Origin: SAR86 cluster bacterium
GTDB taxonomy: Bacteria; Pseudomonadota; Gammaproteobacteria; Magnimaribacterales; Magnimaribacteraceae
Direction of reading: 5' to 3'
Length of the DNA: 64,000 bases
Assembly: GCA_029268615.1 (NCBI GenBank)
Contig: JAQWNM010000007.1
Location: 1-64,000, forward strand
Of this stretch, positions 8,877 to 25,818 are shown one piece after another (position 1 is the stretch's first letter; each line of letters opens with the position of its first letter). The translations under genes and the position numbers were made by a program. The notes under the pieces were generated by a model. It was given only the letters and a program-made list of their open reading frames with translations. It was not told the DNA's origin and ran no database searches.

Positions 8877-10064
8877 ATGGAAAACATTTTATCTTTGATA
8901 GGTAGAGATCAAGCACTATTTAGTCTTGATATTTCAAGTCATGAGGAGCGTATACAAGAAGTTATCCAAACATCTACCTTTTTAGTTATTGGAGCTGCGG
9001 GATCCATAGGCGAAGCAGTAACCAAAGAAATTTTTAAACGAAATCCAGCTTCTCTTCATTGCGTAGATATCAATGAAAACAATCTTGTTGAGCTTGTTCG
9101 AGATATCAGGAGTTCCTTTGGCTACATTAAGGGGGAATTCAAGACTTTCGTCATAGACTGTGGCTCTGAAGAGTTCGAGGCCTTATTGAGCATGAACTCT
9201 TATGATTTTATATTAAATCTCTCGGCTTTAAAGCATGTGCGAAGTGAAAGTGATCCTCTTAGCTTAATGAGAATGGTTGAAGTGAATATTATAAACACCA
9301 TTAAGACTTTAAAGCTGGTGGAGGATAAATCAATTAAAAAATATTTTTGTGTTTCTACAGATAAAGCCGCTAATCCCGTCAATATGATGGGCGCATCTAA
9401 AAGGATAATGGAAAAATTTTTAATCAAGCATGGGCGTCTAGTGGATATTTCCACTGCTAGATTTGCAAATGTCGCTTTCTCCAATGGCTCTCTTTTAGAC
9501 GGTTTTAGATATAGGATGGAAAAGGGGCAACCTCTTGCTGCGCCATCGGATATTCTTAGATATTTTATAACGCCTCAAGAATCTGGAGAGCTGTGTTTGA
9601 TGTCGTGTTTATTTGGAGAGAGTAAGGATATATTTTTTCCAAAATTAGATGAAAGCTTACATTTAATAAAATTTTCGGACATAGCTATAAAGTTTCTAAA
9701 ACTTAGAGGATACACCCCCTATATCTGCACCTCTGAGGAGGAGGCGCGTAAAGATATAGAAAGTTTCAGGAAAAAAAATACTTGGCCTTGTTTTTTTGAA
9801 GAAAGTAATACAACCGGTGAAAAGGGCTTTGAAGAGTTCTTTACAGAAGGGGAAGAGCTAGATTTAAAAACATATAAGGGTATTGGGGTGGTCAAGCATT
9901 CAGAAGAATTAAATACAGCCTCATTGGAAAACTTTGAGAAAACTATTTATAAATTAAGGTCTCAAAAAAAGTGGAGTAAACCTGAATTAGTAGAATTATT
10001 TGAAACGTGCTTGCCAAATTTTAGTCACAATGAGCGAGGTAGATTTCTAGATGATAAAATGTGA
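8877..10064 (+). CDS. NDP-HexNAc 4,6-dehydratase (FlaA1/PseB/CapD family)
   Basis: A 395-residue extended SDR of the polysaccharide-biosynthesis dehydratase family. The nucleotide-binding motif GAAGSIG spans residues 39-45. NLSALKHVRSESDP (~114-127) and STDKAANPVNMMGASKR (~160-176) are family hallmarks. The catalytic-tyrosine position of YxxxK is Met171 (M-G-A-S-K175), as in the FlaA1/WbpM/PseB group. These enzymes remove water from UDP-GlcNAc, the first step towards 2,4-diamino sugars. The tail beyond residue ~290 is longer than in short PseB proteins. A TAGAAT -10-like box ends six bases before the ATG, suggesting that the island transcript starts here. Confidence 0.85.
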   Translation: MENILSLIGRDQALFSLDISSHEERIQEVIQTSTFLVIGAAGSIGEAVTKEIFKRNPASLHCVDINENNLVELVRDIRSSFGYIKGEFKTFVIDCGSEEFEALLSMNSYDFILNLSALKHVRSESDPLSLMRMVEVNIINTIKTLKLVEDKSIKKYFCVSTDKAANPVNMMGASKRIMEKFLIKHGRLVDISTARFANVAFSNGSLLDGFRYRMEKGQPLAAPSDILRYFITPQESGELCLMSCLFGESKDIFFPKLDESLHLIKFSDIAIKFLKLRGYTPYICTSEEEARKDIESFRKKNTWPCFFEESNTTGEKGFEEFFTEGEELDLKTYKGIGVVKHSEELNTASLENFEKTIYKLRSQKKWSKPELVELFETCLPNFSHNERGRFLDDKM

Positions 10065-10146
10065 GTTAATAAAATTGAGCTAGTATGATTTTATTTATAT
10101 TAAATAAAGAATGTCTAGAATTACTTTCTAAAAAAGGTTAAGAATA

Positions 10147-10782
10147 GTGCAAATAGTACTTTTATCTGACATACATGGAAATCTTCCTGCTCTTGAACGT
10201 GTAATATCAGAAACAAAAACAGAAAACTCTTATATCGTGATGGGCGATGTTGTGAACTATGGCCCTTGGGGGAATGAATGCGTTGAATTACTAGACAGTT
10301 TAGACGATTGCATTACATTGAGAGGAAACCATGAAGATTATTTCATCAATGGAGTTTGCACAGCAAATAGCCATTTGTGTGAAAGATTCTTTGATGTATG
10401 TTTTGAAAAGTTTTCTCAACAACAAATTATTGAGAATTACTTGGATCATTATTATTTAGATGATTTTAAATGTATCCATACGATAGAGGATCAATATATT
10501 TTCGAGGATACAGAAATACCGCTGGATCAAAATTACATAATAGGTCATTCGCATAAACAATTTAAAAAAGAGTACAAAAAATATTCGTTAATAAACCCAG
10601 GAAGCGTGGGTCAGAATCGCCAGTTTATTAATGAGATAAATTTTGCTCTTTTAGATAGAGAAACTGGGGCGGTTGATTTTAGAAGCATGCTTTACGATGT
10701 AGATGCTGTCATAAATGAAATGCTCAAAAAAGGTTATCCTAAGGAATGTTTGGATTATTACAGATTGAAGGATAGAAAGTGA
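10147..10782 (+). CDS. Calcineurin-like metallophosphoesterase
   Basis: The 211-residue protein carries the dimetal phosphoesterase motifs in order: LSDIHGN (residues 5-11), GDVVNYGP (~33-40), RGNHEDY (~59-65), then GHSHKQF (~136-142) and NPGSVGQNR (~154-162). This matches the YfcE/family 2 phosphodiesterase type. It probably cleaves a phosphomonoester or diester. In this setting it may act on a sugar phosphate or nucleotide by-product of the glycan pathway, which is inference. The GTG start is the first in frame. Its stop overlaps the start of the ATP-grasp gene (GTGA), so the two are translationally coupled. Confidence 0.82.
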   Translation: MQIVLLSDIHGNLPALERVISETKTENSYIVMGDVVNYGPWGNECVELLDSLDDCITLRGNHEDYFINGVCTANSHLCERFFDVCFEKFSQQQIIENYLDHYYLDDFKCIHTIEDQYIFEDTEIPLDQNYIIGHSHKQFKKEYKKYSLINPGSVGQNRQFINEINFALLDRETGAVDFRSMLYDVDAVINEMLKKGYPKECLDYYRLKDRK

Positions 10783-11768
10783 ATATATTAGTAACAGGAT
10801 CTGGCTCACTGCTAGGGCAGGGGATTATAAAGTCCTTAAAAAGTTCTAATTTAGATTTTGAACTTTATTCAACTGATTACTTTTCCTCTGCTGTAGGCCT
10901 TTATTGGGCAAATAAATCCTTTTTAATGCCAGATATCCTAAAAGATTCAGTGTCTGAAGATAGTTGGTTAGAAGCATTAAAAGAAATAATTATCTCTCAT
11001 GAGATCGAGATAGTAATCCCGGGCCTTGATTTTGAGATACCGATTCTCGCAAAACATAAAGATGCTATAGAAAAAGATACCGGATCTTTTGTAATTGTGA
11101 GTCCAGAAAAAGTGGTCACAATAGGGAATGATAAATGGGAAACCTATAAATTTCTTAAGGAAAGTGGATTAATTTTTCCGGAGTCTTCTTTGCCCGAAGA
11201 CAGAGAAGATTTTCTGTCAGATAATAATTACCCTTTAATCGTTAAACCTCGTTTTGGACATACTTCAAAAGATGTCTTTATTGTCAATAATATTGAAGAA
11301 TTAAAACGAGCATTAGATAAAGTAGATAGGCCGATTATCCAGGAATATCTCGGTAGTGCTGATGAAGAATATACCTGTAGTACAGTTTTTGTAGAAGAAT
11401 CAATAATAAGCACTATAAGCCTTAAAAGAACTTTAAAAAATGGAAACACTCATGTTGCTTTCTTAGAAGAGTATGAAGAAATAGATGATTACATAAATGA
11501 AGTAACCAAAGTGCTTAGGCCTCATGGCGCTACGAATTTTCAATTGAGATTAACTGAAAAAGGACCAGTCATTTTTGAAATCAATCCAAGGTTTTCTGGA
11601 ACAACCCCAATCAGATCAATATTTGGAGTTAACGAAGTAGAAGCTTCTATACAAGCCATTTTATTTGAAAACTATAATCAAGAGTTTATAAAAAAACCTG
11701 GGGTAGTGATTAGATACATGGAAAGTGAATTTGTTGAATGGAAAAAATATAATTCTTTCAAAAATTGA
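10779..11768 (+). CDS. ATP-grasp ligase of the glycan island
   Basis: The 329 residues have a Rossmann-like pre-ATP-grasp domain (ILVTGSGSLLGQGIIKSL, ~1-105) and a CarB/PylC-like ATP-grasp domain. YPLIVKPRFGHTSKDVFIV (~150-168) binds nucleotide, PIIQEYLG follows, and NFQLRLTEKGPVIFEINPRFSGTTP (~248-272) carries the Mg-binding E..N pair. ATP-grasp enzymes join a carboxylate, activated as acyl phosphate, to an amine or thiol. In this cluster it could attach an amino acid or other acyl group to an amino sugar; the substrates cannot be read from sequence. It overlaps both neighbours by four bases. Confidence 0.82.
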   Translation: MNILVTGSGSLLGQGIIKSLKSSNLDFELYSTDYFSSAVGLYWANKSFLMPDILKDSVSEDSWLEALKEIIISHEIEIVIPGLDFEIPILAKHKDAIEKDTGSFVIVSPEKVVTIGNDKWETYKFLKESGLIFPESSLPEDREDFLSDNNYPLIVKPRFGHTSKDVFIVNNIEELKRALDKVDRPIIQEYLGSADEEYTCSTVFVEESIISTISLKRTLKNGNTHVAFLEEYEEIDDYINEVTKVLRPHGATNFQLRLTEKGPVIFEINPRFSGTTPIRSIFGVNEVEASIQAILFENYNQEFIKKPGVVIRYMESEFVEWKKYNSFKN

Positions 11769-12616
11769 ATATTCTAATAACCGGCTCTCACGGGTTTGTT
11801 GGCAAGAGCTTAACAAATCATTTGGGTAAAAATTATAGCGTTTTTGGTTTAGGACGTTCAAAAAAAAATAAAATTAACCCTAAGAATGAATTTGAGGTTA
11901 ATTTATTAGATAAAGCAGATATAGAAGATTTTCTGAAACAAGTTAAAAAAAATGGTTTAAGAGACTGGCAGACAATTATTCACTGCGCTGGAGTTCCTGC
12001 GTCTCAAAATCCAATAAAAGATGGAATAGTTTTAAAGAATAATAATCATATCAATGAACACGTTGCAGATTTAGCTAGAGAGCTATCGCCGTCAGTTTTC
12101 ATAAACCTTTCCTCTATGTCTGTTTATCCTTATGAAGATGGAAATTTTTCTGAGGAGTCTAAATGCGAACCTTTTAAGAATTCAGATTTCTATTATGGGT
12201 TATCTAAATTGAATGGAGAAATGATTTTGTCTAATGCGTTAGCAGAAACAACCTCCAGACTGGTAAACCTGAGGGTAGCCCAAGTATACGGAGAAGGAAT
12301 GAGAGCGGATAGAATTATTCCGGTCATGCTTAATGAGTTAAAAAAAGAAAATAAAATAACTGTATTTGGCGAGGGAGAGAGAAAGACAAATTTCATAGAA
12401 ATTAGAGATCTTTGCAAAGTTATTGAATATTTTCTTATATCCTCTAATGAGGGAACATACAATGTGGGTAAAGAAAATATATCACTACTAGAACTAGCTA
12501 CAAGGCTGATAAAATCAAAAGGCAATAAGGATTCTTCCGTTAACTTAGTAAAAGAAGGAAAAAGAGAAAAATTTATCCTTGATACTTCAAAATTAAGAAA
12601 ATTAATTGAAATATAG
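11765..12616 (+). CDS. NAD-dependent epimerase/dehydratase (extended SDR)
   Basis: A 283-residue extended SDR with the N-terminal NAD(P) motif TGSHGFVG (6-13), the NLSSMSVYP strand with catalytic Ser, and the YYGLSK catalytic pair Tyr144/Lys148. Downstream, RVAQVYGEGM and NFIEIRDLCKVIEYFL match GalE/RmlD-like sugar-nucleotide enzymes. Epimerase, dehydratase or reductase activity on a nucleotide sugar is expected; specificity is unknown. Start is a TTG overlapping the previous stop (TTGA). It ends a coupled trio (phosphoesterase, ATP-grasp, SDR) and is followed by a 107-base gap containing a hairpin. Confidence 0.82.
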   Translation: MNILITGSHGFVGKSLTNHLGKNYSVFGLGRSKKNKINPKNEFEVNLLDKADIEDFLKQVKKNGLRDWQTIIHCAGVPASQNPIKDGIVLKNNNHINEHVADLARELSPSVFINLSSMSVYPYEDGNFSEESKCEPFKNSDFYYGLSKLNGEMILSNALAETTSRLVNLRVAQVYGEGMRADRIIPVMLNELKKENKITVFGEGERKTNFIEIRDLCKVIEYFLISSNEGTYNVGKENISLLELATRLIKSKGNKDSSVNLVKEGKREKFILDTSKLRKLIEI

Positions 12617-12648
12617 CCTCTAGTTATAATGAAATAAATAATGAGTAG

Positions 12649-12674
12649 ACTATTATTTAATATTCAATAATAGT
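12649..12674 (+). promoter_or_regulatory. Inverted repeat in the gap before hisF2
   Basis: ACTATTATT (12649-12657) and AATAATAGT (12666-12674) are perfect reverse complements around an 8-base centre. No T-run follows, so this is not a standard terminator. It could be an RNA processing hairpin or an operator dividing the island into sub-operons. It lies in the largest gap inside the island (107 bases). Confidence 0.35.
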
Positions 12675-12723
12675 AATATCGCGCCCCATATAGGGATTTA
12701 AATATAATTAAGAAGATTAATTC

Positions 12724-13614
12724 ATGATAAGAATCATTCCAAGGTTAGATATAAAAGGACCAAATGTTGTAAAAGGCCTCTGTTTTGACGGTTATAGAGT
12801 GTTAGGCAAAGCTGATAGATTAGCCGAATTGTATTACAAAGAGGGAGCCGATGAACTTTTTTTTCAGGATGCAGTCGCCAGCTTGTACGAAAGGAATAAT
12901 TTATTAGATATGATAAGCCTCGCAGCCGAAAAGGTTAGAATTCCTATAACTGTTGCTGGAGGGATGAGGAGTATAGACGATGTGGGAGAAGTGTTGAGAG
13001 CTGGAGCAGACAAGGTAGCTATCAATACTGCAGCAACTAAGGATCCTTCTTTTATAGAAAGAGCAGCCAAAAAATTTGGATCTCAATGCATTGTTCTTTC
13101 CATAGAGGCAAAAAGAAGAACAGAAAAAAAATATGAAGCTTGGGTTGATTACGGCCGTCAGCCTACGGGCATAGATGCTTTTGAGTGGGCAAAGCGTGGA
13201 GAGGATTTAGGCGCTGGAGAAATTTATCTTTCGTCTGTAGACCAAGATGGCTCGGGAGAAGGGTATGAAATAGATTTAATCCATGAGGTTTCATCCAAAG
13301 CTTCAATCCCAGTTATAGCCTCTAGTGGGGCTGGAAGTTTGGTTGACTTTCATAAGGTTATTGAAGAAGGAGAAGCAGATGCCGTTTCAGCAGCTTCAGC
13401 ATTTCATTACCATTACTTCGATAAATTTATGGATGATTTAGCAGGCGAGGAAGGCGGAGAGTTAAGAATGGGGAAACAGGAAGATTTAGGGAATTTAGAA
13501 TTTATTAGGGAAGGATATGGAGGCTTTGATGCCATTCAAGTAGATCCCTTTTCTATAAAATCTGCCAAAGATTATCTTCAAGATAAAGGCATAAAAATAA
13601 GAATAAGCCAATAA
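12724..13614 (+). CDS. hisF: HisF2/WbuZ-type synthase subunit for acetamidino sugar formation
   Basis: A 296-residue HisF-like (beta/alpha)8 barrel (RIIPRLDIKGPNVVKG, ITVAGGMRSIDDV, AGADKVAINT, SSVDQDGSGEGYE, IPVIASSGAG). Next to HisH and WbuX it belongs to the HisF2/WbuZ (AglZ) group. That group is thought to pass glutamine-derived ammonia to an N-acetyl sugar amidotransferase rather than to make histidine. The Asp equivalent to Thermotoga HisF Asp11 is kept as Asp9. The Asp130 equivalent is Glu128 (SIEAKR in place of the usual DAKR), consistent with loss of the histidine-pathway cyclase reaction. The C-terminus is longer than in true HisF. hisH follows after 11 bases. Confidence 0.87.
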   Translation: MIRIIPRLDIKGPNVVKGLCFDGYRVLGKADRLAELYYKEGADELFFQDAVASLYERNNLLDMISLAAEKVRIPITVAGGMRSIDDVGEVLRAGADKVAINTAATKDPSFIERAAKKFGSQCIVLSIEAKRRTEKKYEAWVDYGRQPTGIDAFEWAKRGEDLGAGEIYLSSVDQDGSGEGYEIDLIHEVSSKASIPVIASSGAGSLVDFHKVIEEGEADAVSAASAFHYHYFDKFMDDLAGEEGGELRMGKQEDLGNLEFIREGYGGFDAIQVDPFSIKSAKDYLQDKGIKIRISQ

Positions 13615-13625
13615 ATCTAGTATAA

Positions 13626-14261
13626 ATGCAGAAAATAACTTTGATAGATTATGACATGGGTAATACTTTCAGTGTCACTAGAGCCCTTGAATCTTTTGGG
13701 TGTGAAGTAGAGTTTTCAAATGACCCTAGCATAATAGAAAATTCTAGCAAACTAGTGCTTCCGGGTGTTGGCGCCTTTGAAGATGGAATAAGCAACCTTA
13801 AATCTCTTAATCTTGACAAGGCTATTATCAATTTCGTAAATAAGGGAAACCCTATTCTTGGTATCTGCGTTGGAATGCAATTAATGATGAGCAGGTCAGA
13901 AGAAAATGGAAATCATGAAGGGTTAAATATTGTCGAAGGAGACGTTTTAAGGTTTGACGAAAGTAAGTCTGAAAACAACAAGTTTAAAATACCTCAAATT
14001 GGGTGGAATCAACTTAATATTAAGTCAAATTTATCAAAAAGTAAGATTCTAAGTGCAATGAATGAAGAGCCCAGTATGTATTTTTTACATTCTTACTTTG
14101 TTGATCCTTTAGATAAAGATATAGTTTTAGCCGAAACTTCATATGGAGAGAATACATTTTGTTCAGCGTTTGAAGACAATAATATTTATGGTTTTCAATT
14201 TCATCCAGAAAAAAGCGCAGAAGACGGACTTCAACTCTTGAAAAATTTTATTGAACTTTAA
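13626..14261 (+). CDS. hisH: HisH-type glutamine amidotransferase subunit
   Basis: The 211-residue class I glutaminase has the complete triad: Cys81 in GICVGMQL, His193 and Glu195 in FHPEK. The LPGVGAFEDG oxyanion-strand motif (~45-54) is typical of HisH. It hydrolyses glutamine and delivers ammonia through the paired HisF-like barrel. Placed between hisF2 and the PP-loop amidotransferase gene with gaps of 11 and 6 bases, it is the nitrogen donor of the acetamidino module (WbuY role) rather than a histidine enzyme. No other his genes are in the window. Confidence 0.9.
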   Translation: MQKITLIDYDMGNTFSVTRALESFGCEVEFSNDPSIIENSSKLVLPGVGAFEDGISNLKSLNLDKAIINFVNKGNPILGICVGMQLMMSRSEENGNHEGLNIVEGDVLRFDESKSENNKFKIPQIGWNQLNIKSNLSKSKILSAMNEEPSMYFLHSYFVDPLDKDIVLAETSYGENTFCSAFEDNNIYGFQFHPEKSAEDGLQLLKNFIEL

Positions 14262-14267
14262 TTAATT

Positions 14268-15482
14268 ATGACTGAAAAAAAATTCACTACGCTAGATAAA
14301 CAGTGGGACGAGATACCTAAAGAGGTAGTTTTTTGTAAAAACTGTGTAGTTTCAAATCAAAGACCTAGAACAAAGTTTAATGACGAGGGCATTTGCTCTG
14401 CTTGTGTTTGGGCTTTAGAAAAAGATGTAATCATTGATTGGGATCAAAGAGAAAAAGAACTGGAAGAACTTTGCGATAAATTTAGAAGTAATGATGGAAG
14501 TTTTGATGTGGTTGTCCCCGGCAGCGGAGGTAAAGATAGTGCATTTGTAGCACATCAACTCAAGCATAGGTACAACATGCACCCTTTATGCGTTACTTGG
14601 TCTCCTTTTGAATATACGGATGCGGGGTGGACGAACATCAAAAATTTTATTAATGCGGGTTTTAACAATATTTTGGGCCAACCCGATGGAGCATTGCATA
14701 GAAAATTAACTAAGCTAGCCTTTGAGCTTAAAGGTGATGCATGGGAACCGTTTGCGTATGGTCAAAAAGCTTGGGCCTTTCATATAGCTACTAGATTTGG
14801 GGTCAAACTAATAATGTATGGTGAAAATGGAGAACTTGAATATGGAGGTTCAGAAAAATATAAGCATTCACCCAAAGAGGGCCCAGAAGAATGGGAATAT
14901 GAATACTTTAAAGGTGCAAGCGTCGATGATCTTGTAGATAAAGGCATAGAAAAAGGAGTTTTAGAGAAAAGTGAGGTCGAAGAAAATACCTTTCAACTAT
15001 ACAAGCCTCCTAATCCAGAAGATGTATTACAATCTGGAGCGGAAATGCACTGGTATTCTTATTATCAAAGGTGGACGCCTCAGGAGAATTATTATTATGC
15101 CTATAAACATACTGGCTTTAGGCCTAATCCAGAAGGTAGGTCTGAAGGTACATATACTCAATATGTTAGCTTAGATGATAAACTAGATGGCATTCACTGG
15201 TATCAGAGTTATGCAAAGTTTGGCATGGGTAGAGGCTCTAGGGATGCACAAACAGACATAAGGCGTGGGCACATAACAAGAGACGAAGGAGTGGCTTTGG
15301 TTGAGAAGTATGATGGAGAAATACCCAAACGGGATCTTGCTTTTTTCCTAGATTACATAGATATAGATGAAGATTTTTTCTGGGAAGTGATTGACCAGTA
15401 TAGAGAAATTTCTAATGTTTGGGAAAAGGTAAATGGAGAGTGGGTGATGCCCCATTTACCTAAGAAAACAACAAACTACTAA
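14268..15482 (+). CDS. wbuX: N-acetyl sugar amidotransferase (WbuX/PseA type)
   Basis: A 404-residue PP-loop enzyme. The ATP pyrophosphatase motif SGGKDS is at residues 86-91. Two CxxC pairs (Cys23/Cys26 and Cys43/Cys46) form an N-terminal zinc site. The family (WbuX in E. coli, PseA in Campylobacter) converts an N-acetyl group on a sugar to acetamidino by ATP-activated amide amination, using ammonia from HisH/HisF partners. Both partners precede it directly. Expected product: an acetamidino-bearing sugar, plausibly a nonulosonic acid since neuB-type and CMP-transferase genes follow. Its length is usual for the family. Confidence 0.9.
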   Translation: MTEKKFTTLDKQWDEIPKEVVFCKNCVVSNQRPRTKFNDEGICSACVWALEKDVIIDWDQREKELEELCDKFRSNDGSFDVVVPGSGGKDSAFVAHQLKHRYNMHPLCVTWSPFEYTDAGWTNIKNFINAGFNNILGQPDGALHRKLTKLAFELKGDAWEPFAYGQKAWAFHIATRFGVKLIMYGENGELEYGGSEKYKHSPKEGPEEWEYEYFKGASVDDLVDKGIEKGVLEKSEVEENTFQLYKPPNPEDVLQSGAEMHWYSYYQRWTPQENYYYAYKHTGFRPNPEGRSEGTYTQYVSLDDKLDGIHWYQSYAKFGMGRGSRDAQTDIRRGHITRDEGVALVEKYDGEIPKRDLAFFLDYIDIDEDFFWEVIDQYREISNVWEKVNGEWVMPHLPKKTTNY

Positions 15483-15541
15483 AAAATTTTTTACACTCCG
15501 AGTAGTTTTATATTAGGAATTCATTGAAAGAATAGTTTGGT

Positions 15542-16477
15542 ATGCATGATTTAAGTCATTCAGTAATGTTTCATCACTTTCACAATGAAACACATCCACA
15601 AGGCCAGGGTTCTCTTGACACGAACAATTTTAATAAAATGTTAGACTGGTTAAAATCTAACTATAACTTGCTTTCAGCAGATGATTATTTAAAAAAGGCT
15701 TTGAGTTCTTCATTAGAAAAAGATGATATCTGTCTTTCTTTCGATGATGCTTTGTTGTGTCAATATGAAGTGGCATTTCCAGTATTAGAAGAAAGAAATA
15801 TTAAGGCATTCTTTTTTATCTATTCATCACCTCTAAATAATCAGGTTGATTATTTAGAAATTTTTAGATTTTTCAGAACAATTAGCTATGAAACAATACA
15901 TGAATTTTATGCTGATTTCTTTTCTGTTTATAAAATAGAAAATTTTAATGAATTCCTCAAAGAAAAGGAAAAATATAATAAATTGGACTATTTGAGTGCC
16001 TTTGAATTTTATTCAAATGACGATAAATGGTTTAGATATATAAGGGATCAAGTTCTCACCAGTGAAAGTTATCAAGCTATAATGTTAAAACTTCTAGAAA
16101 AGAAAGATTTCGATATGGAGGCAGCTACGTCTCAGCTTTGGATGACTGACGAGCACATTAGTGATTTAAACTCAAAGGGTCATATTTTAGGCTTACATTC
16201 TTATAATCACCCAATGACAATACAAAAGTTGTCGTATTCCGAACAGCAACTAGAGTATAAAGAGAATTATGATCATTTGAAGAAAGTTATTGGAGAGACT
16301 AAAATTATAACCATGTCCCATCCTTGTGGAAACTATAATCAAGATACTTTAAAAGTTTTGAAGGATATGGGAATAAAAGTAGGTTTTCTTTCTAGCATGG
16401 CCGGTACAAAAATTAATTCTCTTCTAGAGCTTCCTAGGGAAGATCAAGCAAATGTAGCAAGAGAAATGAATCTATGA
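15542..16477 (+). CDS. Polysaccharide deacetylase (NodB/CE4 family)
   Basis: The 311 residues contain the CE4 signature: SFDDA (66-70) gives the catalytic base and metal Asp, and HSYNH (~204-208) matches HSxxH for the other metal ligands. SHPCGNYNQDTLKVLKDMG (~264-282) corresponds to motif 3 onward. A helical insertion lies at about 105-190. No signal peptide is seen, so it probably acts in the cytoplasm on a sugar-nucleotide or lipid-linked substrate. Its stop overlaps the formyltransferase start (ATGA), a coupling that hints at removal of an N-acetyl group and its replacement with formyl. That pairing is inference. Confidence 0.8.
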   Translation: MHDLSHSVMFHHFHNETHPQGQGSLDTNNFNKMLDWLKSNYNLLSADDYLKKALSSSLEKDDICLSFDDALLCQYEVAFPVLEERNIKAFFFIYSSPLNNQVDYLEIFRFFRTISYETIHEFYADFFSVYKIENFNEFLKEKEKYNKLDYLSAFEFYSNDDKWFRYIRDQVLTSESYQAIMLKLLEKKDFDMEAATSQLWMTDEHISDLNSKGHILGLHSYNHPMTIQKLSYSEQQLEYKENYDHLKKVIGETKIITMSHPCGNYNQDTLKVLKDMGIKVGFLSSMAGTKINSLLELPREDQANVAREMNL

Positions 16478-17253
16478 GAATTACTGTTTTTACTAGTAAT
16501 CAAGCCCGCCATATATCCTTGATAGAAAATTTAGCAAACATTTGTGACGAACTTTATTGTGTTCAAGAATGTAATACAATTTTTCCTGGATCTGTTGAAG
16601 ATTTTTATAAAAAGACAGATATTATGCAAGAGTACTTTGGGTCTGTATTAAATGCAGAAAAAAAAATATTTGGGAAACCTTCTTTTCTTCAAAAGAATAT
16701 AGTTAGTTTTTCCATCAAGGTAGGCGACTTAAGTTTATTAGATAAAGAATCCCTTTCAAAATGCCTCCAGTCTGATATTTATATTGTTTTTGGTGCCAGT
16801 TATATCAAAGGATGGCTTGCCGAATATTTAACTTCAAAAAATACAATAAATATACACATGGGGGTTTCTCCTTATTACAGGGGTTCTTCATGTAATTTTT
16901 GGGCTTTATATGATGAAAACCCTTCCTATGTAGGCGCTACTATTCACAAATTATCTAAAGGATTAGACAATGGACCTATTCTTTATCATTGCTTGCCTAA
17001 ATATAAAGGAGAAAGCGTTTTCGAGTTCACCATGAATTCGGTAAAGATAGCCCATCAGTCTCTCATTGAGAGGATATCAAGTGAAGAGATATTTGATATA
17101 AAGCCTATTGAACAAGATCGCTCCTTAGAAGTGCGATATACTAAAAATATGGATTTTACTGACAAGGTAGCCTCTGAATTTTTACAGAGAGCCATTATAT
17201 TAGACAAGACGAGCTTTAATTATCCTGATCTTGTGAATCCTTATTTTGGATGA
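16474..17253 (+). CDS. Formyltransferase-family enzyme (sugar N-formyltransferase candidate)
   Basis: A 259-residue protein with the formyl-transferase N-terminal fold. The catalytic trio is present as Asn126 and His128 (INIHMG) and Asp165 (GLDNGPI), spaced as in methionyl-tRNA and sugar N-formyltransferases. YYRGSSCNFWALYDENPSYVGATIH is the usual core between them. It should transfer formyl from N10-formyl-tetrahydrofolate to an amine. Its position in a diamino-sugar island and coupling to the deacetylase gene suggest an amino sugar acceptor. It lacks a clear C-terminal Fmt tRNA domain, so it is not fmt itself. Confidence 0.82.
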   Translation: MRITVFTSNQARHISLIENLANICDELYCVQECNTIFPGSVEDFYKKTDIMQEYFGSVLNAEKKIFGKPSFLQKNIVSFSIKVGDLSLLDKESLSKCLQSDIYIVFGASYIKGWLAEYLTSKNTINIHMGVSPYYRGSSCNFWALYDENPSYVGATIHKLSKGLDNGPILYHCLPKYKGESVFEFTMNSVKIAHQSLIERISSEEIFDIKPIEQDRSLEVRYTKNMDFTDKVASEFLQRAIILDKTSFNYPDLVNPYFG

Positions 17254-17320
17254 TTGTTAAGGGTTAAAACTGGATCTTTATTAAATAAGCATTTTTACTT
17301 CGTATAAGACTTTGAAAGAC

Positions 17321-19096: not shown

Positions 19097-19154
19097 TACT
19101 TTGTATAAAGCCTATTTGGTTTAAGCTACACTCAATATTTTCAGTGGTTTTATT

Positions 19155-20372
19155 ATGATTCAGGAAATAAGTATTCTCTCTAAAAACATTAATACTTCAA
19201 ATAAATGGTTATTGATTGGGGTCAAAGAAAGGGAGATTCTTAATGAAAATAATTTTAAAAATCAAGACAATAAAAATAAAATTAAATTTTTCTTTCTCAT
19301 ATTTTTAAGCTTCTTAAATATTTTAGTTACTTTTTTTATACATAAATGGTCCGGTTTGAAAGGGGGATTTGAATCTCTTCCCGAACATTTGGTAGTGAAA
19401 TCTGACAGAAGTTATAGGCATCATAATTATTTAAGGCATATAAATAAAAATAAAGTTTATCCCTATAGAATTTTTGAAGTTTTTAATCGAAAGAGTTATG
19501 CAAAGCTAAAGAAGTTAAAATTTTCTAAAATTCTATTTCATTTTATAAAGCAATATCAGTTAATAAATAAGTTTTGTGAGGAATATAGAGGACTTAGGAT
19601 TAGTAAACTGGTTAAAGAAAATGCCTTATTAAATTTAGCTCCTTACTCCTTCTTTTTAGCTTTATTTGAAGAGATAAAGCTAGATACCCCTAAGATAAAT
19701 ATTTTTCATAGCGGCTCTCATTTATTGGCTCTGGCAGCAAATAATTCGGGAATTTCATCTACTCATTTAACACACGGCCTTGTTATCAACAATTTGTATT
19801 CTAGTTATGCTGACGATGATCACATTTATGTTTATTCAAAGGAGGAGGCAAATTTTTTTGAAGAGTTTTGGCCAAATGCAAAAGTTTCAATATATCCAAT
19901 GCGAAAAGTGGAAACAAAGTTAAAAAAAATAATAGGCTTCTTACAATATGAGTCTACCTTCGATGATGTCAAAAAAAAAGACCTGTTGGATTTATTAAAT
20001 TTCTTTAATGGGATGTCTTATCAAGTCCTTGTAAAGCCTCACCCTGCTACTGATATTGAATCTATTAAAGCCTTAAAAGCTTTATCAAATGATTTAAATA
20101 TATTAGAACATGATGAAATTTCTACAAATGAATTGCTGGTCGAGCAATCTCCAATGTTTACTTTTGGTTGGTCATCTACCGCACTATGTGAATCATTAAG
20201 AAGTGGAATAATCCCTATTAATTTATCTCCTGAAGATGATGAGCATATGTTTATGCCTTATCCTTTTTCTAAAAGGGCTTTATCTTGGGCAAAAGACAAA
20301 GAATTAATTAAAGGTATAGTTGAAAATAAAGTAGATTACCTAGGCGCTCTTGCTCATTTAATAGATCAATAA
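19155..20372 (+). CDS. Candidate GT-B glycosyltransferase, possible nonulosonyltransferase
   Basis: No family is certain. The 405-residue protein has a hydrophobic segment at residues 43-63 (membrane-associating) and basic stretches. Its C-terminal half holds KPHP (294-297) and GWSST (338-342, Ser340-Ser341-Thr342) followed by a PINLSPEDDE loop. An HP motif and an S-S/T motif at this order and spacing are the marks of bacterial sialyl/polysialyltransferases of the GT38/GT52 type, and also occur in some CDP-polyol transferases. As the gene lies directly before the NeuB-type synthase gene, transfer of a CMP-nonulosonic acid is the favoured reading. The N-terminal D/E-D/E-G motif is not obvious. 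Confidence 0.5.
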   Translation: MIQEISILSKNINTSNKWLLIGVKEREILNENNFKNQDNKNKIKFFFLIFLSFLNILVTFFIHKWSGLKGGFESLPEHLVVKSDRSYRHHNYLRHINKNKVYPYRIFEVFNRKSYAKLKKLKFSKILFHFIKQYQLINKFCEEYRGLRISKLVKENALLNLAPYSFFLALFEEIKLDTPKINIFHSGSHLLALAANNSGISSTHLTHGLVINNLYSSYADDDHIYVYSKEEANFFEEFWPNAKVSIYPMRKVETKLKKIIGFLQYESTFDDVKKKDLLDLLNFFNGMSYQVLVKPHPATDIESIKALKALSNDLNILEHDEISTNELLVEQSPMFTFGWSSTALCESLRSGIIPINLSPEDDEHMFMPYPFSKRALSWAKDKELIKGIVENKVDYLGALAHLIDQ

Positions 20373-20432
20373 TTTAGGTATTAAAAATTACAAATTTTGT
20401 TTTCTGTCTAGAAATTTAAGTACACTAGGATA

Positions 20433-21446
20433 ATGTTTAACTCAAATAATCAGGTCTATGTCATAGCAGAGGCAGGGGTAAATCATAATGGTGACTTAAT
20501 AAGAGCATTAGAAATGATATCAATAGCCAAAGATGCGGGTGCAGATGCAATAAAATTTCAAACAGCAGTACCAGAAGATGTGGTTACTAGATCCGCTTCT
20601 AAAGCAGAGTATCAAAAAAATCCAAATGATAATGGGCAGACTCAATTAGATATGATAAAAGAAATACACCTCCCTTTATCTGATTATAAGACACTGAAAC
20701 ATGAATGCGACGCATGCGGTATAGAGTTTATGTCTTCGGCATTTGATCTCAAAAGTCTTAAATACTTAAGAGATTTAGGTCAGAATTTTTTTAAGGTTCC
20801 GTCTGGTGAAATAAATAATTACCCATATTTATACGCTGTCGGCAAAATCTCTAAACCGGTCATTTTATCAACTGGTATGTCTACTTTAGTGGAGGTAAAT
20901 CAGGGAATAGATGTTCTGTTGGAGGCGGGGCTCACAAAAGAATTTATCACATTGTTACATTGCAATACAGAATATCCAACCCCTATTGAAGATGTTAATT
21001 TAAATGCTATGTTAACTTTAAGGGATGAATTCAATCTTTCAGTGGGTTATTCAGATCATACTCTTGGACAGGAAGTATCTATTGCAGCAGTTGCGATGGG
21101 CGCAAAGGTTATCGAAAAGCATTTCACCTTAGATAAGGAGCTACCTGGACCTGATCATCGAGCTAGTTTGGGGCCGAATGAATTATCTAACTTTGTAATA
21201 GCTATAAGAAATATAGAAAAATCCTTAGGATCTTTTGTTAAAAAGCCTTCACCTAGTGAATTTAAGAACATTGAAATTGTCAGGAGATCAATAGTGGCAA
21301 AAGAATCTATTAAAAAAGGAGATTTGTTTACAGAAGACAATGTGACAACTAAGAGGCCAGCACTTGGAATTTCTCCTATGAAATGGAAGGAGATACTAGG
21401 AACTAAAGCTTCAAAAGATTATCATCTGGATGACTTAATAGAATAA
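20433..21446 (+). CDS. Nonulosonic acid synthase (NeuB/LegI/PseI family)
   Basis: A complete 337-residue synthase. The N-terminal NeuB barrel has VIAEAGVNHNGD, AIKFQT, FMSSAFD, FKVPSGEINNYPYL, ILSTGMST, LHCNTEYPTP, VGYSDHT and KHFTLDKELPGPDH. A C-terminal SAF/antifreeze-like domain (~275-337) contains RRSIVA and DLFTEDNVTTKRPALGISP. It condenses phosphoenolpyruvate with a hexosamine to give a nine-carbon acid. LHCNTEYPTP (Asn-Thr rather than the Thr-Ser common in sialic acid synthases) favours a legionaminic/pseudaminic-type substrate, but family placement needs a tree. It precedes the LegC-type aminotransferase gene. Confidence 0.9.
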   Translation: MFNSNNQVYVIAEAGVNHNGDLIRALEMISIAKDAGADAIKFQTAVPEDVVTRSASKAEYQKNPNDNGQTQLDMIKEIHLPLSDYKTLKHECDACGIEFMSSAFDLKSLKYLRDLGQNFFKVPSGEINNYPYLYAVGKISKPVILSTGMSTLVEVNQGIDVLLEAGLTKEFITLLHCNTEYPTPIEDVNLNAMLTLRDEFNLSVGYSDHTLGQEVSIAAVAMGAKVIEKHFTLDKELPGPDHRASLGPNELSNFVIAIRNIEKSLGSFVKKPSPSEFKNIEIVRRSIVAKESIKKGDLFTEDNVTTKRPALGISPMKWKEILGTKASKDYHLDDLIE

Positions 21447-21498
21447 AGATATGCTGACTAAAATTAAAGACATTCAATCTAGATCTTAGACTTTTAAA

Positions 21499-22647
21499 AT
21501 GATTGAAGAATTCAATACTCTGGTAAGAGATTTATATAAAACCTCAGATGTTATTTCTTTGCATGAACCATGCTTCATTGGCAAAGAAAAAGAATATTTA
21601 TCTGAAGTTATAAGTTCTACTTTTGTTTCCAGCGTTGGAAAATCAATAGGAGAATTTGAAAAGAAAATTGCAAGTTATATGGGCTTAGATCATGCTGTAG
21701 CAACTTCAAATGGAACTTCAGCTCTACACTTGTCTCTATTAGTATCAGGAGTTAGTCAGAATACTGAAGTAATAACTCAGTCTTTAACTTTTGTAGCGAC
21801 ATGTAATGCTATAGATTATTGTGGAGCAAGCCCAGTTTTTGTTGACATAGATAAAGAAACTTTGTCTATGTCGCCATTAAGTTTATTAGAATTTTTGGAT
21901 AAATATGCAGAAGTCAGAGATGACGGCTCATGTTGGAATAAAACATCAGGAAAAGAGATAACGGCTTGCTTGCCTATGCACTCATATGGCTTTCCAGCCG
22001 CCATTGAAGAAATAAACCTTATTTGTTCTAGATTCAACATTCCTTTAGTTGAAGATTGTGCAGAATCTTTGGGAAGTTTTTATCACAAAAAACATACTGG
22101 CTCTGAGTCACTTTTATGTGCTCTCAGTTTTAATGGCAATAAAATAATTACTACAGGTGGTGGAGGCATGGTGTTAACAAACAACCTTGATTTATCAAAT
22201 AAAGTAAGACACCTCTCTACAGTAGCAAAGATAGAGCACCCTTGGGAATTCAATCACGATAAGGTGGGTTTTAATTATAGGATGCCAAATTTAAATGCAG
22301 CTCTTGGACTGGCACAAATTGAATCCTTAGATAAATTTTTGGTTAGTAAAAAATCTTTAGCTAGCTGTTACTATGATTGGGGAAAAGAAAGAGGAATGGT
22401 TTTTCATAGAGGGCAACAAGATACTTCACCAAATTACTGGCTAAATTGTTTAATCACTGAAAATCTTGAATCAAGAGACAAGTTTATTAGAGAAACAAAT
22501 AAAAATAATATAAGAACTAGGCCTTCATGGAATCCTGCCCATTCTTTACCCCCTTATCAAGATTGCCAAAGAGATAGACTAGAAAATACATCTTGGGCTT
22601 TTGAAAGACTTGTGAATGTTCCTAGTTCTCCAATTTTAGATCTATGA
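21499..22647 (+). CDS. LegC-type sugar aminotransferase (DegT/DnrJ/EryC1)
   Basis: A 382-residue PLP enzyme of the DegT family. The PLP lysine is Lys215 in SFNGNKIITTGGGG. ATSNGTSALHL (~68-78) and VEDCAESLGSFY (~184-195) bind the cofactor, and NYRMPNLNAALGLAQIE is a family signature. The overall pattern matches LegC, which aminates C-4 of a 4-keto-6-deoxy nucleotide sugar towards legionaminic acid. It would act on the product of the dehydratase encoded at 8877. The stop overlaps the Gfo/Idh start (ATGA). Confidence 0.87.
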   Translation: MIEEFNTLVRDLYKTSDVISLHEPCFIGKEKEYLSEVISSTFVSSVGKSIGEFEKKIASYMGLDHAVATSNGTSALHLSLLVSGVSQNTEVITQSLTFVATCNAIDYCGASPVFVDIDKETLSMSPLSLLEFLDKYAEVRDDGSCWNKTSGKEITACLPMHSYGFPAAIEEINLICSRFNIPLVEDCAESLGSFYHKKHTGSESLLCALSFNGNKIITTGGGGMVLTNNLDLSNKVRHLSTVAKIEHPWEFNHDKVGFNYRMPNLNAALGLAQIESLDKFLVSKKSLASCYYDWGKERGMVFHRGQQDTSPNYWLNCLITENLESRDKFIRETNKNNIRTRPSWNPAHSLPPYQDCQRDRLENTSWAFERLVNVPSSPILDL

Positions 22648-23648
22648 GTAGAGTAGACAATTTTCTTATAATAGGCAGTGGAAGTATGGCCCGTCGTCAT
22701 TCTCAAAATTTGAGGCTATTGTTTCCTAAAAGCAAAATAGGTAATTTACCCGGTTCGTCTTCCAACTCAAATATAGAAAACTCCTTGGTAGACGAATTAT
22801 TTCAAAGTCCAGAAGAGGCAAGGAAATTTAACCCTAAATTTGTGGTAGTTGCATCATCGGCTAATTTACATTTAACTAATGCGGCAGAGTTTTTGCAACA
22901 TGATATACCAACATTAATAGAGAAGCCCTTATGTAAAGACCTGGAGGAATTTAAAAAATTTAAAAGGCTTTTATTCAGTAAAAAAAACCTTTTAGATTTT
23001 GGCTATTGCTTAAGATACCAAGAGGGAGCCTTAAAATTTAAGGAAATAATTACTTCCAGAATTCTGGGGAAGGAATATTCTATCATTGTAAACGTAGGGC
23101 AATATTTACCTGAGTGGCGACCGGGGCTAGATTATAAAAAAAGTGTTTCAGCAAATAAGAGTTTGGGTGGTGGTGTTTTATTAGAGCTCAGCCATGAATT
23201 AGATTATTTAAATTGGATATTCGGCATTCCAGATTCAGTATTTTGTAATATTTTGAGTATAGGGAATTTAGATATAGATGTTGAAGATAATATTGATGCA
23301 ATATTAATGAAATCAAGAGGTTGTAATATTAATCTCCATATGGACTTTTTACAAAAACCACCTACTAGGTTTTGCAAAGTTATAGGTGAAAATGGAGTTT
23401 TAATATGGAACCTCTTAGAAAATTCAATTTCTTTAGAAAATAAAAATGAGAAAAAAACATTATTTGAAGAGCCAGATTTGGATCGTAATAAAATGTTTTT
23501 AGATATGTTGTCTCGCTTTTCTATTTTAGCGAATGGTGAGTTAAACCCTCTTATTTCTCTTGAAGAAGCTCTAAATGTTATGCATCTTATATCTGGTTTA
23601 GAGCTATCTCATCTTCAGAGGTGCGCAATAAATATAAAGAGAATTTAA
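22644..23648 (+). CDS. Gfo/Idh/MocA family oxidoreductase
   Basis: The 334-residue protein has the N-terminal Rossmann motif IIGSGSMARRH (~9-19), the EKPLCKDL motif (~93-100) that orients nicotinamide, and GGGVLLELSHELDYLNWIFG (~174-193), typical of the C-terminal dimer domain with its catalytic histidine region. It probably oxidises or reduces a nucleotide sugar or acyl-sugar. Such genes often sit next to neuB/CMP-synthetase genes in nonulosonic acid loci. It overlaps the aminotransferase gene by 4 bases and the CMP-sugar synthetase gene by one (TAATG). Confidence 0.85.
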   Translation: MSRVDNFLIIGSGSMARRHSQNLRLLFPKSKIGNLPGSSSNSNIENSLVDELFQSPEEARKFNPKFVVVASSANLHLTNAAEFLQHDIPTLIEKPLCKDLEEFKKFKRLLFSKKNLLDFGYCLRYQEGALKFKEIITSRILGKEYSIIVNVGQYLPEWRPGLDYKKSVSANKSLGGGVLLELSHELDYLNWIFGIPDSVFCNILSIGNLDIDVEDNIDAILMKSRGCNINLHMDFLQKPPTRFCKVIGENGVLIWNLLENSISLENKNEKKTLFEEPDLDRNKMFLDMLSRFSILANGELNPLISLEEALNVMHLISGLELSHLQRCAINIKRI

Positions 23649-24331
23649 TGACAATGAAAACTTTTGCTTTTATATTTGCCAGAGGCGGCTCTAAAGGTCT
23701 TCCGGGCAAGAACTTAAAAAAATTAGGCAATACCCCTTTAATAGGCCATTCAATAAATCTTGCTAAGTCTATAGATCTAGTTGACGAAGTTTTTGTATCC
23801 ACAGAATCAAAAGAAATAAAAAGCGTCTCAAAAGATTTTGGTGCAGAAATAATAGATAGACCATCATCGCTCGCTTTAGATGAGAGCTCTGAATGGGAGG
23901 CTTGGCAACATGCTGTAAAGCATTTAGAGTCTAAGAATAGACATTTTGATTATTTCCTTAGCCTGCCGCCTACTGCACCTCTTAGGCAAGAGTCAGATGT
24001 ATTGAAGTGTTTTGATTTAATTGCGAGTAATGTAGATGTCGTCATAACAGCTTCACCCTCTCAAAGAAATCCTTACTTTAATATGATTTTTAGAGAAAAA
24101 GATGGCACTTCTAAATTAATCTTTGAAACCAATCCAGTTCATAGACGCCAGGATGCTCCAGAAGTGTATGACGTTGCAACGGCAGCATATTTATCAAAAC
24201 CATCTTTTATTCTTAATAATAATGGAATTTTTGATGGAAAAGTCAAGTCAGTTATAATTCCTAGAGAAAGAGCTGTGGATATTGATGACCAAACTGATTT
24301 TTTACTAACTAAAACTCTGTATGAAGAATAA
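23648..24331 (+). CDS. CMP-nonulosonic acid cytidylyltransferase (NeuA/LegF family)
   Basis: The 227-residue cytidylyltransferase has the nucleotide-binding motif FARGGSKGLPGKN near the N-terminus and LPPTAPLR in place of the usual LQPTSPLR. VDIDDQTDFLL, the C-terminal metal and substrate loop, is intact. It charges the nonulosonic acid with CMP for transfer. The ATG at 23648 overlaps the previous stop (TAATG); an ATG six bases on is also possible, while an in-frame GTG at 23621 lies inside the previous gene and is unlikely. The product lacks the C-terminal phosphatase domain of some NeuA enzymes. Confidence 0.88.
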   Translation: MTMKTFAFIFARGGSKGLPGKNLKKLGNTPLIGHSINLAKSIDLVDEVFVSTESKEIKSVSKDFGAEIIDRPSSLALDESSEWEAWQHAVKHLESKNRHFDYFLSLPPTAPLRQESDVLKCFDLIASNVDVVITASPSQRNPYFNMIFREKDGTSKLIFETNPVHRRQDAPEVYDVATAAYLSKPSFILNNNGIFDGKVKSVIIPRERAVDIDDQTDFLLTKTLYEE

Positions 24332-25094
24332 CTTAAATTTAAAAGGAAAAACAATCATCCTAGCAGGGGCTTTAGGAAGAATAGGTAAAACCTTATCTAA
24401 TGATCTTCTTGAACAAGGTGCATCTGTAATAGCTTTAGATATTCAAGAATCTAACCCTAAAGAGCACAAACATCAGGAGCATAAAGATTATGATTATCAA
24501 ATGGGAGATGTATCAAATGGTGCGTCAGTTGATTCTTTGTTTGATTATGGGGTAAAAAAGTACGGAAAAATAGATGGAGCCATAAATACTTCTTACCCAC
24601 GTAATGAGAACTTTGGAAGACATTTTTTTGACGTAGAGTATGAAGATTTTTGTGAAAATATCTCTTTACATTTAGGAGGATATTTCTTGTTCATGCAAAA
24701 ATGCGCTAAATTTTCTGCTTTAAATGATCTGTCCTTTTCTTTGGTTAATTTTTCTTCAGTATATGGTGTAATTGCACCAAAATTTGATATGTATGAAGGA
24801 ACAGATATGACTGTTGCAGTCGAATATGCAGCCATAAAACCAGCTATTCAACATCTTACAAAATATGTTGCTGCCTATACTAAAGGCTCTAATTTTAGAG
24901 TTAATTGTATTTCCCCAGGAGGTATTCTTGATGGTCAAGATCCAAAGTTTTTAGAAAGATACAAAAAAAATTCTAGAACGAAAGGCATGTTAGACCCTGA
25001 AGATCTTAGTGGAACGGTTTTGTTTTTATGCTCTGATATGTCTAAATCTATTTGCGGTCAAAATATTATTGTTGATGATGGTTTCACTTTATAA
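24321..25094 (+). CDS. Short-chain dehydrogenase (PtmA-like)
   Basis: A 257-residue classical SDR. GALGRIG (16-22) replaces the usual TGxxxGIG, the catalytic residues Ser145/Ser146, Tyr169 and Lys173 (EYAAIK) are present, and VNCISPGGI and GQNIIVDDGFTL close the fold. It resembles PtmA, the SDR of Campylobacter flagellin-modification loci, next to the CMP-synthetase gene. It probably oxidises or reduces a pathway intermediate. It overlaps the previous gene by 11 bases and is the last clear sugar gene of the island. Confidence 0.83.
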   Translation: MKNNLNLKGKTIILAGALGRIGKTLSNDLLEQGASVIALDIQESNPKEHKHQEHKDYDYQMGDVSNGASVDSLFDYGVKKYGKIDGAINTSYPRNENFGRHFFDVEYEDFCENISLHLGGYFLFMQKCAKFSALNDLSFSLVNFSSVYGVIAPKFDMYEGTDMTVAVEYAAIKPAIQHLTKYVAAYTKGSNFRVNCISPGGILDGQDPKFLERYKKNSRTKGMLDPEDLSGTVLFLCSDMSKSICGQNIIVDDGFTL

Positions 25095-25149
25095 ATATTA
25101 ATTTATAGTATTTATTGAGGGCCGCTGACAATTTTTTTAAATAAATAAC

Positions 25150-25818
25150 ATGAGTCAATATAAGTACCTTAGCATTCCCGCAATATTTATCTTAGAGGCA
25201 GAGATGCCCCAAGAGATGCTTGATGAGATTAATAGTTATTTAGATAAGGCTATTAATTCTGATTTATCTTTAACAAATGCTGACAGATTAATAGGTCAGG
25301 GAGAAACGATAGAGCAATTGAGGCTTGACCCTAAAGAAAAAGCGTTTGGAGCCTTTTCTGAAATAGTTTTAACTTTGGGAGTAGAATATATCAAACGATA
25401 TTCTGAAAACACAAAAGAATACTTCAGAAAAACTAAGAAATTAGAGATAGATTCTCTTTGGTCCGTCCATAGCTATGCAGGAGATTACAACCCCCTCCAT
25501 GATCATCTAACAAAAACTACGATGGGTATTTCGTTTACGGGCTGGACTAAAATCCCAGAACAAATAGGTTCGCACGGCATCGATATGTATAATGCTTCAG
25601 GAGCTAGCGATGGCTTTATTAATTTTACTTGGGGAAGTACTTCTCTTACAGATAAAGAACGTTTAAGGCCCAAAAATAACATTTTACTAGAACCTAAAGA
25701 AGGCAAACTACTTTTCTTTCCTTCCTGGGTTCAACATACAGTTTATCCTTTCAGGGGCGAGGGAGAAAGAAGGACTATAGCTGGAAATATAAATTGTTGG
25801 GATGTTGAAGACAAATAA
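25150..25818 (+). CDS. Putative 2-oxoglutarate/Fe(II) oxygenase
   Basis: A 222-residue protein resembling the 2OG-FeII_Oxy_5 group. HSYAGDYNPLHDHL (107-120) has the proximal iron ligands in HDH (117-119). A double-stranded beta-helix follows, with FFPSWVQHTVYPF (189-201) giving the distal ligand His196, and Arg207/Arg208 can bind the 2-oxoglutarate carboxylate. The reaction would be hydroxylation of an unknown substrate. It starts 55 bases after the SDR gene on the same strand, so it may tailor the same glycan or a protein; this is inference. Confidence 0.7.
   Translation: MSQYKYLSIPAIFILEAEMPQEMLDEINSYLDKAINSDLSLTNADRLIGQGETIEQLRLDPKEKAFGAFSEIVLTLGVEYIKRYSENTKEYFRKTKKLEIDSLWSVHSYAGDYNPLHDHLTKTTMGISFTGWTKIPEQIGSHGIDMYNASGASDGFINFTWGSTSLTDKERLRPKNNILLEPKEGKLLFFPSWVQHTVYPFRGEGERRTIAGNINCWDVEDK

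Follow-up and report, generated by a model that had tools for sequence, protein, structure and literature searches.

A predicted operon for a modified legionaminic-type nonulosonic acid, with a candidate deacetylase-formyltransferase pair, in a SAR86 cluster bacterium

The stretch of DNA analysed here (the window) comprises 64,000 nucleotides at the start of contig C7 in the genome of a SAR86 cluster bacterium (assembly GCA_029268615.1; 1.77 Mb, 96% complete). Its positions 8877-25818 hold 17 open reading frames (ORFs), all on the forward strand and each at least 211 amino acids long. The original prediction, made from the sequence alone, described this segment as a nonulosonic acid (NulO) island of about 16 forward-strand genes with several stacked sugar-modification enzymes; the description holds, with 17 genes in place of about 16, and its interpretation proved partly right. 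On sequence grounds, a modified legionaminic-type NulO is well supported as the product of the operon, and the comparative data argue that two of its genes, for a deacetylase and a formyltransferase, form one functional pair. All 17 reading frames are intact, with little space between them, and 16 gave a clear Pfam or NCBIfam match in profile searches. The many short overlaps that had been claimed are indeed there: neighbouring genes overlap at six junctions (by 4, 4, 4, 4, 1 and 11 bp, the start of the cytidine monophosphate (CMP) synthetase gene being taken as ATG 23648 in preference to GTG 23621), and the remaining gaps measure 6-107 bp. Because of these overlaps and short gaps, a single transcript is likely; scans of the operon for promoters and terminators gave matches no more numerous than in shuffled sequence. 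The enzymes named in the prediction were all found, with NeuB, LegC and WbuX over curated cut-offs; for HisF2, the CMP-synthetase and PtmA the family is clear, but the scores stay below the equivalog cut-offs. Missing from its gene list were a PF02719 dehydratase, a calcineurin-like phosphoesterase, an epimerase-type short-chain dehydrogenase/reductase (SDR), a Gfo/Idh oxidoreductase, a polysialyltransferase-like glycosyltransferase and a 2-oxoglutarate (2OG)-Fe(II) oxygenase. In what follows, G numbers denote genomes searched (G000 is the source genome), L numbers loci compared and C numbers contigs.

The legionaminic-type core is represented in the operon by the following genes:

8877-10064, forward strand: nucleoside diphosphate-sugar 4,6-dehydratase, candidate LegB (PF02719, 3.8e-42)
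20433-21446, forward strand: NeuB/LegI synthase (TIGR03569, 469.7 against a cut-off of 399.65; PseI model below its cut-off)
21499-22647, forward strand: LegC aminotransferase (TIGR04181, 493.1 against a cut-off of 420)
22644-23648, forward strand: Gfo/Idh oxidoreductase, PtmF-like (PF22725, PF01408; 42% identity to the gene at the PtmF position of G075)
23648-24331, forward strand: CMP-nonulosonate synthetase, LegF/PtmB-like (PF02348, 4.9e-19; 55% identity to the G075 homologue)
24321-25094, forward strand: PtmA-like SDR (NF006619, 325.9 against 255; 58% identity to G075)

The assignment to a legionaminic-type acid draws on the NeuB and LegC equivalogs and the CMP-synthetase of the operon, on a NeuC gene at another site of the genome and on comparable clusters in relatives. 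The PseC model, unlike that of LegC, is not exceeded in the window. For the CMP-synthetase the best equivalog (PseF) lies below its cut-off, and the PtmA-like SDR scores 225.6 on the PtmA equivalog, below the cut-off of 350. For LegC, PtmF, the CMP-synthetase and PtmA alike, the closest relatives, at 42-58% identity, belong to one full cluster in G075, ordered WbuX-HisF-HisH-LegB-LegC-NeuC-NeuB-formyltransferase-PtmE-PtmF-LegF-PtmA. The comparison of gene content across the lineage that had been proposed as a check did reveal similar NulO clusters in relatives, for example G075 and G102. Many members of the lineage have a NulO synthase, a NeuB match being present in 64 of the 151 genomes searched. 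The window dehydratase is 57-59% identical to dehydratases of relatives' NulO or LegC loci, such as the G102 locus with the order PF02719-type dehydratase-LegC-LegH-NeuB-NeuC; it gave no match to TIGR04180 (LegB), the model to which the G075 dehydratase belongs. What had been overlooked in the core pathway was the absence of LegG from the operon and of LegH over cut-off. LegG/NeuC is located on contig C5, where it is the sole Epimerase_2 gene of the genome (TIGR03568, 478.5 against 235.9), in the company of rml-type nucleotidyltransferase and dehydratase genes, two glycosyltransferases and methyltransferases. No LegH (TIGR03570) over cut-off was found genome-wide, the best score being 69.8 against 160.8, and the matches to this model in the source genome are probably generic hexapeptide proteins; the LegH of the relative G102 exceeds the same cut-off with 184.9.

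Upstream of these genes, apart from the dehydratase, lies the candidate pair:

15542-16477, forward strand: CE4-type deacetylase, candidate first partner of an acetyl-to-formyl exchange (PF01522, 3.4e-18)
16474-17253, forward strand: small formyltransferase, candidate second partner (PF00551, 2.4e-6), overlapping the deacetylase gene by 4 bp

The deacetylase contains the metal-site motifs FDD and HxxxH, with D68, D69, H219 and H223 invariant among six homologues, and its reading frame has no obvious N-terminal signal sequence. In the formyltransferase, N126, H128 and D165, which we take from family knowledge to be the catalytic Asn, His and Asp, are invariant among five homologues, and the best solved relative in a PDB sequence search is PseJ (1.7e-6). 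Whereas the two enzymes had been regarded as separate decorations, the comparative data point to one functional unit. In 11 of the 13 homologous loci examined, part of this sample having been chosen because both genes scored, the formyltransferase gene lies 0-158 bp from the deacetylase gene, usually within 10 bp and in both orders; the 11 other paired loci include three distinct ones from the viral collection. Among the loci compared, each of the eleven top-scoring formyltransferases has a deacetylase beside it. More weight attaches to two checks free of this choice of loci. When only the deacetylase was used as a query, the five best matches in other genomes all lay within 280 bp of a formyltransferase match, and a search with the formyltransferase only returned three distinct viral-collection loci (L127, L134 and L135/L136, the last two apparently the same sequence), each with an adjoining deacetylase. 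Unpaired deacetylases, in Sinorhizobium americanum and G050, have NeuB within 4.5 kb.

In legionaminic acid synthesis, the future N5 nitrogen carries the acetyl group of N-acetylglucosamine (GlcNAc) from the outset, whereas LegC leaves the future N7 nitrogen as a free amine. Formylation at N7 would need the formyltransferase alone, and formylation at N5 would need prior action of the deacetylase. Given this and the 5-N-formyl and 7-formamido acids reported from other organisms (see below), the reading of the pair as an acetyl-to-formyl exchange unit is chemically plausible. Another explanation, which we consider somewhat unlikely, is that the formyltransferase replaces LegH, as PseJ replaces PseH, to yield a 7-N-formyl acid, and that the deacetylase acts on a polymer or in proofreading. 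PseJ, which substitutes for PseH by acting on a free 4-amine, is the closest solved relative of an enzyme encoded in a genome lacking LegH over cut-off; furthermore, the LegH slot of G075 holds another kind of formyltransferase, which also stands beside NeuB in several relatives. However, the formyltransferases of the LegH-slot type have no adjoining deacetylase, their scores against the paired family are lower, the pairing in either gene order argues that the deacetylase is needed, and the lack of an obvious signal sequence in the latter also speaks against this explanation. The formyltransferases that directly adjoin NeuB without a deacetylase are longer, at about 300 amino acids; that of the G075 LegH slot is found at L097:8193-9107, and others lie 0-350 bp from NeuB in G025, G060, G101 (C1) and G105. 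Legionaminic-type acids with an N-formyl group may thus be widespread among these bacteria.

Three IMG/VR contigs, 85, 201 and 43 kb long, carry the viral copies of the pair, at L127:7099-8798, L134:5114-6828 and L135:5962-7702, respectively. NeuB and a CMP-synthetase-like gene are present within about 5 kb of the pair in L134, a putative viral contig, and an RNA ligase PHROG lies near the pair in L127. Neither the deacetylase nor the formyltransferase matched anything in the phage records, the viral copies being found solely on metagenomic contigs of IMG/VR. We tentatively suggest, as a possibility rather than a probability, that the pair is a mobile N-acyl exchange cassette of bacterial NulO islands and viruses, swapping the GlcNAc-derived N5-acetyl for formyl. 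A precedent for a phage-borne two-gene unit modifying a NulO is known from Acinetobacter baumannii, in which the prophage genes epaA and epaB convert pseudaminic acid (PMC12053666). They epimerise C8, whereas an exchange of an N-acyl group is proposed for the pair in the window, of which all viral copies stem from metagenomic contigs.

The pair is preceded by an amidine module:

12724-13614, forward strand: HisF2/WbuZ-like synthase subunit (PF00977, 2.5e-60; TIGR03572 WbuZ, 251.4 against a cut-off of 299.7)
13626-14261, forward strand: HisH-like glutamine amidotransferase (TIGR01855, 212.6 against a cut-off of 105.4)
14268-15482, forward strand: WbuX/PseA-type N-acetyl sugar amidotransferase (TIGR03573, 336.8 against a cut-off of 203.2)

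The HisF-HisH-WbuX module is complete, with intergenic gaps of 11 and 6 bp. Both N-formyl and acetamidino groups on the product are supported at the level of sequence, owing to the conserved catalytic residues and the recurrent association with NulO genes. As in the window, the deacetylase-formyltransferase pair of G101 and of G173 stands next to HisF-HisH-WbuX, and that of G136 stands next to WbuX. This neighbourhood could mean that the two units act in succession, the acetyl being first replaced by formyl and then converted by WbuX-HisF-HisH to N-formimidoyl (formamidine). We regard such a sequence of events as improbable: all amidine modules known to us yield acetamidino groups, a search of the open-access literature gave no paper with the term 'formimidoyl' among its 20 best hits, and the pair occurs also without WbuX.

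Between the dehydratase and the amidine module lies a triad of genes:

10147-10782, forward strand: calcineurin-like phosphoesterase, triad gene 1 (PF00149, 5.6e-15)
10779-11768, forward strand: ATP-grasp ligase of the PRK12767 'carbamoyl phosphate synthase-like' type (NF009402, 317.7 against a cut-off of 218)
11765-12616, forward strand: extended SDR (NAD-dependent epimerase/dehydratase), triad gene 3 (PF01370, 2.4e-33)

The triad recurs in the same gene order in the Gammaproteobacteria G176 and G283, in the Firmicutes NulO cluster L002, whose SDR is 42% identical to that of the window, and on Sinorhizobium megaplasmids, where it adjoins cysD-nodQ-cysQ. The ATP-grasp proteins of the triads are homologous over their full length (26-42% identity), that of the window sharing 28-42% with its counterparts. 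The phosphatase is calcineurin-like in the window and G176 and a PHP protein in the other three triads (L002, L101 and Sinorhizobium); this interchange of families in one slot suggests that dephosphorylation is part of the module. Since the Sinorhizobium copies lie outside a NulO cluster, the triad is not specific to nonulosonic acids. On plasmid pMl3 of Sinorhizobium medicae (L137:11264-13925), cysD-nodQ-cysQ is followed immediately by the genes for the PHP phosphatase, the ATP-grasp protein and an NAD(P)-dependent oxidoreductase, which suggests that this copy has a role in a sulphated surface glycan; homologues of the ATP-grasp protein were found in 92 plasmid records. That the ligase of the window adds an amide-linked acyl group is a guess. 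Its possible role as a maker of carbamoyl phosphate was set aside, as its homologues accompany a phosphatase and an SDR, not a carbamoyltransferase. A role of the triad in epimerisation at C8 or C4 was likewise unsupported, epaA (a cytidylyltransferase-aldo-keto reductase fusion) and epaB (an adh_short_C2 SDR) being of different families (PMC12053666).

Between the pair and NeuB two further genes were identified:

17312-19096, forward strand: O-carbamoyltransferase of the NodU/TobZ/GdmN family, with both C- and N-terminal domains present (PF16861, 4.8e-54; PF02543, 8.2e-38)
19155-20372, forward strand: polysialyltransferase-like glycosyltransferase, candidate CMP-NulO transferase (PF07388, 9.5e-5; 22.5 against 23.3 bits, just below the cut-off)

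The carbamoyltransferase has PDB relatives at 1.8e-47, and its closest relative, in G154, is also within a NulO cluster. To the best of our knowledge, there is no precedent for a carbamoyl group on a NulO. The PF07388 model was matched by three of six members of the glycosyltransferase family (E up to 0.1), the best at 2.4e-7. HP and S-S/T motifs mark bacterial sialyltransferases, and in a six-sequence alignment HP at 296-297 is invariant and the S-S/T motif is present. All five homologues in other genomes (G002, G067, G082, G144 and G279) sit in NulO clusters, and for this reason the protein is a likely CMP-nonulosonate transferase. It gave no match in PDB sequence searches or in a scan of the viral collection, and its single-sequence AlphaFold model was unusable, with a mean predicted local distance difference test (pLDDT) score of 33.9. 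A second polysialyltransferase-like gene of the source genome (G000:C7:139749-140939, L126; 31% identity) lies beside a tyrosine-phosphatase-family gene and is distant from sugar-synthesis genes.

The idea of a single heavily decorated acid can be retained as far as the modified legionaminic-type acid with its N-formyl and acetamidino groups is concerned; the four modifying activities may or may not all act on this one sugar. What looked like 'stacked' enzymes is a set of cassettes, found elsewhere apart from one another, and some of them may act on a neighbouring residue, because the pair, the triad and the carbamoyltransferase also occur away from NeuB. A serious though not the likeliest alternative is that the operon serves a repeat unit of several unusual sugars, in which the pair, the carbamoyltransferase and the triad modify residues next to the legionaminic one. 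Consistent with it, the pair in G034, G284 and L127 and the triad in Sinorhizobium (by sulphation genes) and G176 are found with no NeuB nearby, and the genome encodes a further carbamoyltransferase of the same family, 29% identical (G000:C14:19973-21742, L118). On the other hand, only one glycosyltransferase is present in the operon, and within this bacterial order many of the further copies of the cassettes lie inside NulO clusters.

The operon ends with one more gene:

25150-25818, forward strand: 2OG-Fe(II) oxygenase-like protein (PF13759, 2.2e-13)

A MORN-repeat protein gene (25819-26403) begins directly after it and possibly belongs to the same transcript. In G002 (L098), a member of the same family, a tetratricopeptide repeat (TPR) gene related to 8217-8801, NeuB and uvrD are found in the corresponding stretch, and the region left of uvrD is different in other relatives, which suggests, on thin evidence, that the operon is located at a variable site. 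The base composition of the island is not distinct. None of the 293 genomes searched, other than that of the window, combines close homologues of the deacetylase, the formyltransferase, the carbamoyltransferase and the ATP-grasp ligase. The variability left of uvrD and the division of the core between contigs could also be explained by a non-functional or transient mosaic island at a hypervariable site. This is very unlikely, as none of the 17 closely packed frames is broken, the inspected catalytic residues are kept and the genome has a NeuC of the appropriate type. In several relatives (L084, L088, L089, L093 and L095), NulO or formyl/deacetylase islands follow a gene of 487-489 amino acids and a HisH-like gene of 510-522 amino acids, probably guaB-guaA (a guess based on their sizes and on weak similarity). 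This site is likely to be a hotspot at which glycan islands settle.

Taken together, we find it fairly probable that the operon encodes the synthesis of an N-formylated and/or amidinated legionaminic-type acid, together with the transferase that places it on a surface glycan. We infer the chemistry, the positions, the order of steps and the action of the pair on a NulO as follows. The dehydratase and LegC would form the nucleotide-linked 4-amino-6-deoxy derivative of GlcNAc, NeuC from the other contig would remove the nucleotide and invert C2, and NeuB would add pyruvate from phosphoenolpyruvate. The LegF-like enzyme would convert the acid to its CMP form, from which the polysialyltransferase-like protein would transfer it. 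The deacetylase would free the amine acetylated in GlcNAc (the future N5), and the formyltransferase, with N10-formyl-tetrahydrofolate as the donor, would acylate a free amine, acetyl being thereby exchanged for formyl at that position. The future N7 amine, free after LegC, may instead be formylated directly, which is possible because no LegH was found. HisF-HisH-WbuX would convert one N-acyl group to an amidine. Several observations weigh against this scheme. The pathway genes are divided between contigs (the operon on C7, NeuC on C5), PtmE is not in the operon (the remainder of the genome was not searched for it), and HisF2 stays under all three equivalog cut-offs. In addition, the pair occurs without NeuB in the sequence examined of G034, G284, G020 and viral L127, and may therefore modify other N-acetyl sugars.

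In Campylobacter jejuni/coli and Plesiomonas, the known CMP-legionaminic acid pathway comprises LegB, LegC, LegH, LegG, LegI, LegF, PtmA, PtmE and PtmF (PMC4481668). The window resembles it in having LegC, LegI/NeuB, LegF-, PtmF- and PtmA-like genes in one operon and a LegG-type NeuC elsewhere; it differs in the lack of LegG and PtmE from the operon and of LegH over cut-off from the genome, in a PF02719 dehydratase instead of a TIGR04180 LegB, and in three additional modification cassettes. 5-N-formyl-legionaminic acid has been described from both Halorubrum sp. PV6 and its virus; a formylated legionaminic acid was detected there by chemical means, and the pathway has a legionaminic core and a formyltransferase as in the window (PMC6137143). 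A deacetylase is not mentioned in that paper, whereas the window pairs both enzymes and adds amidine, carbamoyl and ATP-grasp functions. For a marine Pseudoalteromonas polysaccharide, a 7-formamido analogue of pseudaminic acid is cited in PMC3210612. PseJ (PDB 6ci2, 6ci4, 6ci5 and 6edk) is the nearest solved structure, but the window formyltransferase belongs to a deacetylase-paired subfamily. Similarly, the window has the full three-gene HisF2-HisH-WbuX/PseA module known from Legionella, Campylobacter and Pseudomonas; its module differs in being joined to the deacetylase-formyltransferase pair, as in G101 and G173. Thus, N-formyl and acetamidino nonulosonic acids are already known, while their combination appears to be undescribed in the open-access literature searched, and the same appears to hold for the deacetylase-formyltransferase cassette, its viral occurrence and the triad with interchanged phosphatases.

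Replacing the GlcNAc-derived acetyl group needs deacetylation, a step unnamed in the pathway descriptions consulted, and the pair provides a concrete two-enzyme candidate for it. If its proposed role as a mobile exchange cassette is true, it would explain how 5-N-formyl nonulosonic acids (or formimidoyl ones, if WbuX takes part) are synthesised and would give phages a means to recoat their hosts; the copies on viral contigs suggest such recoating of surface sugars within the phage-host interaction. Seen more broadly, the operon shows that 'heavily decorated' nonulosonic acid islands are built from portable cassettes, which helps to predict surface sugars from genome sequence.

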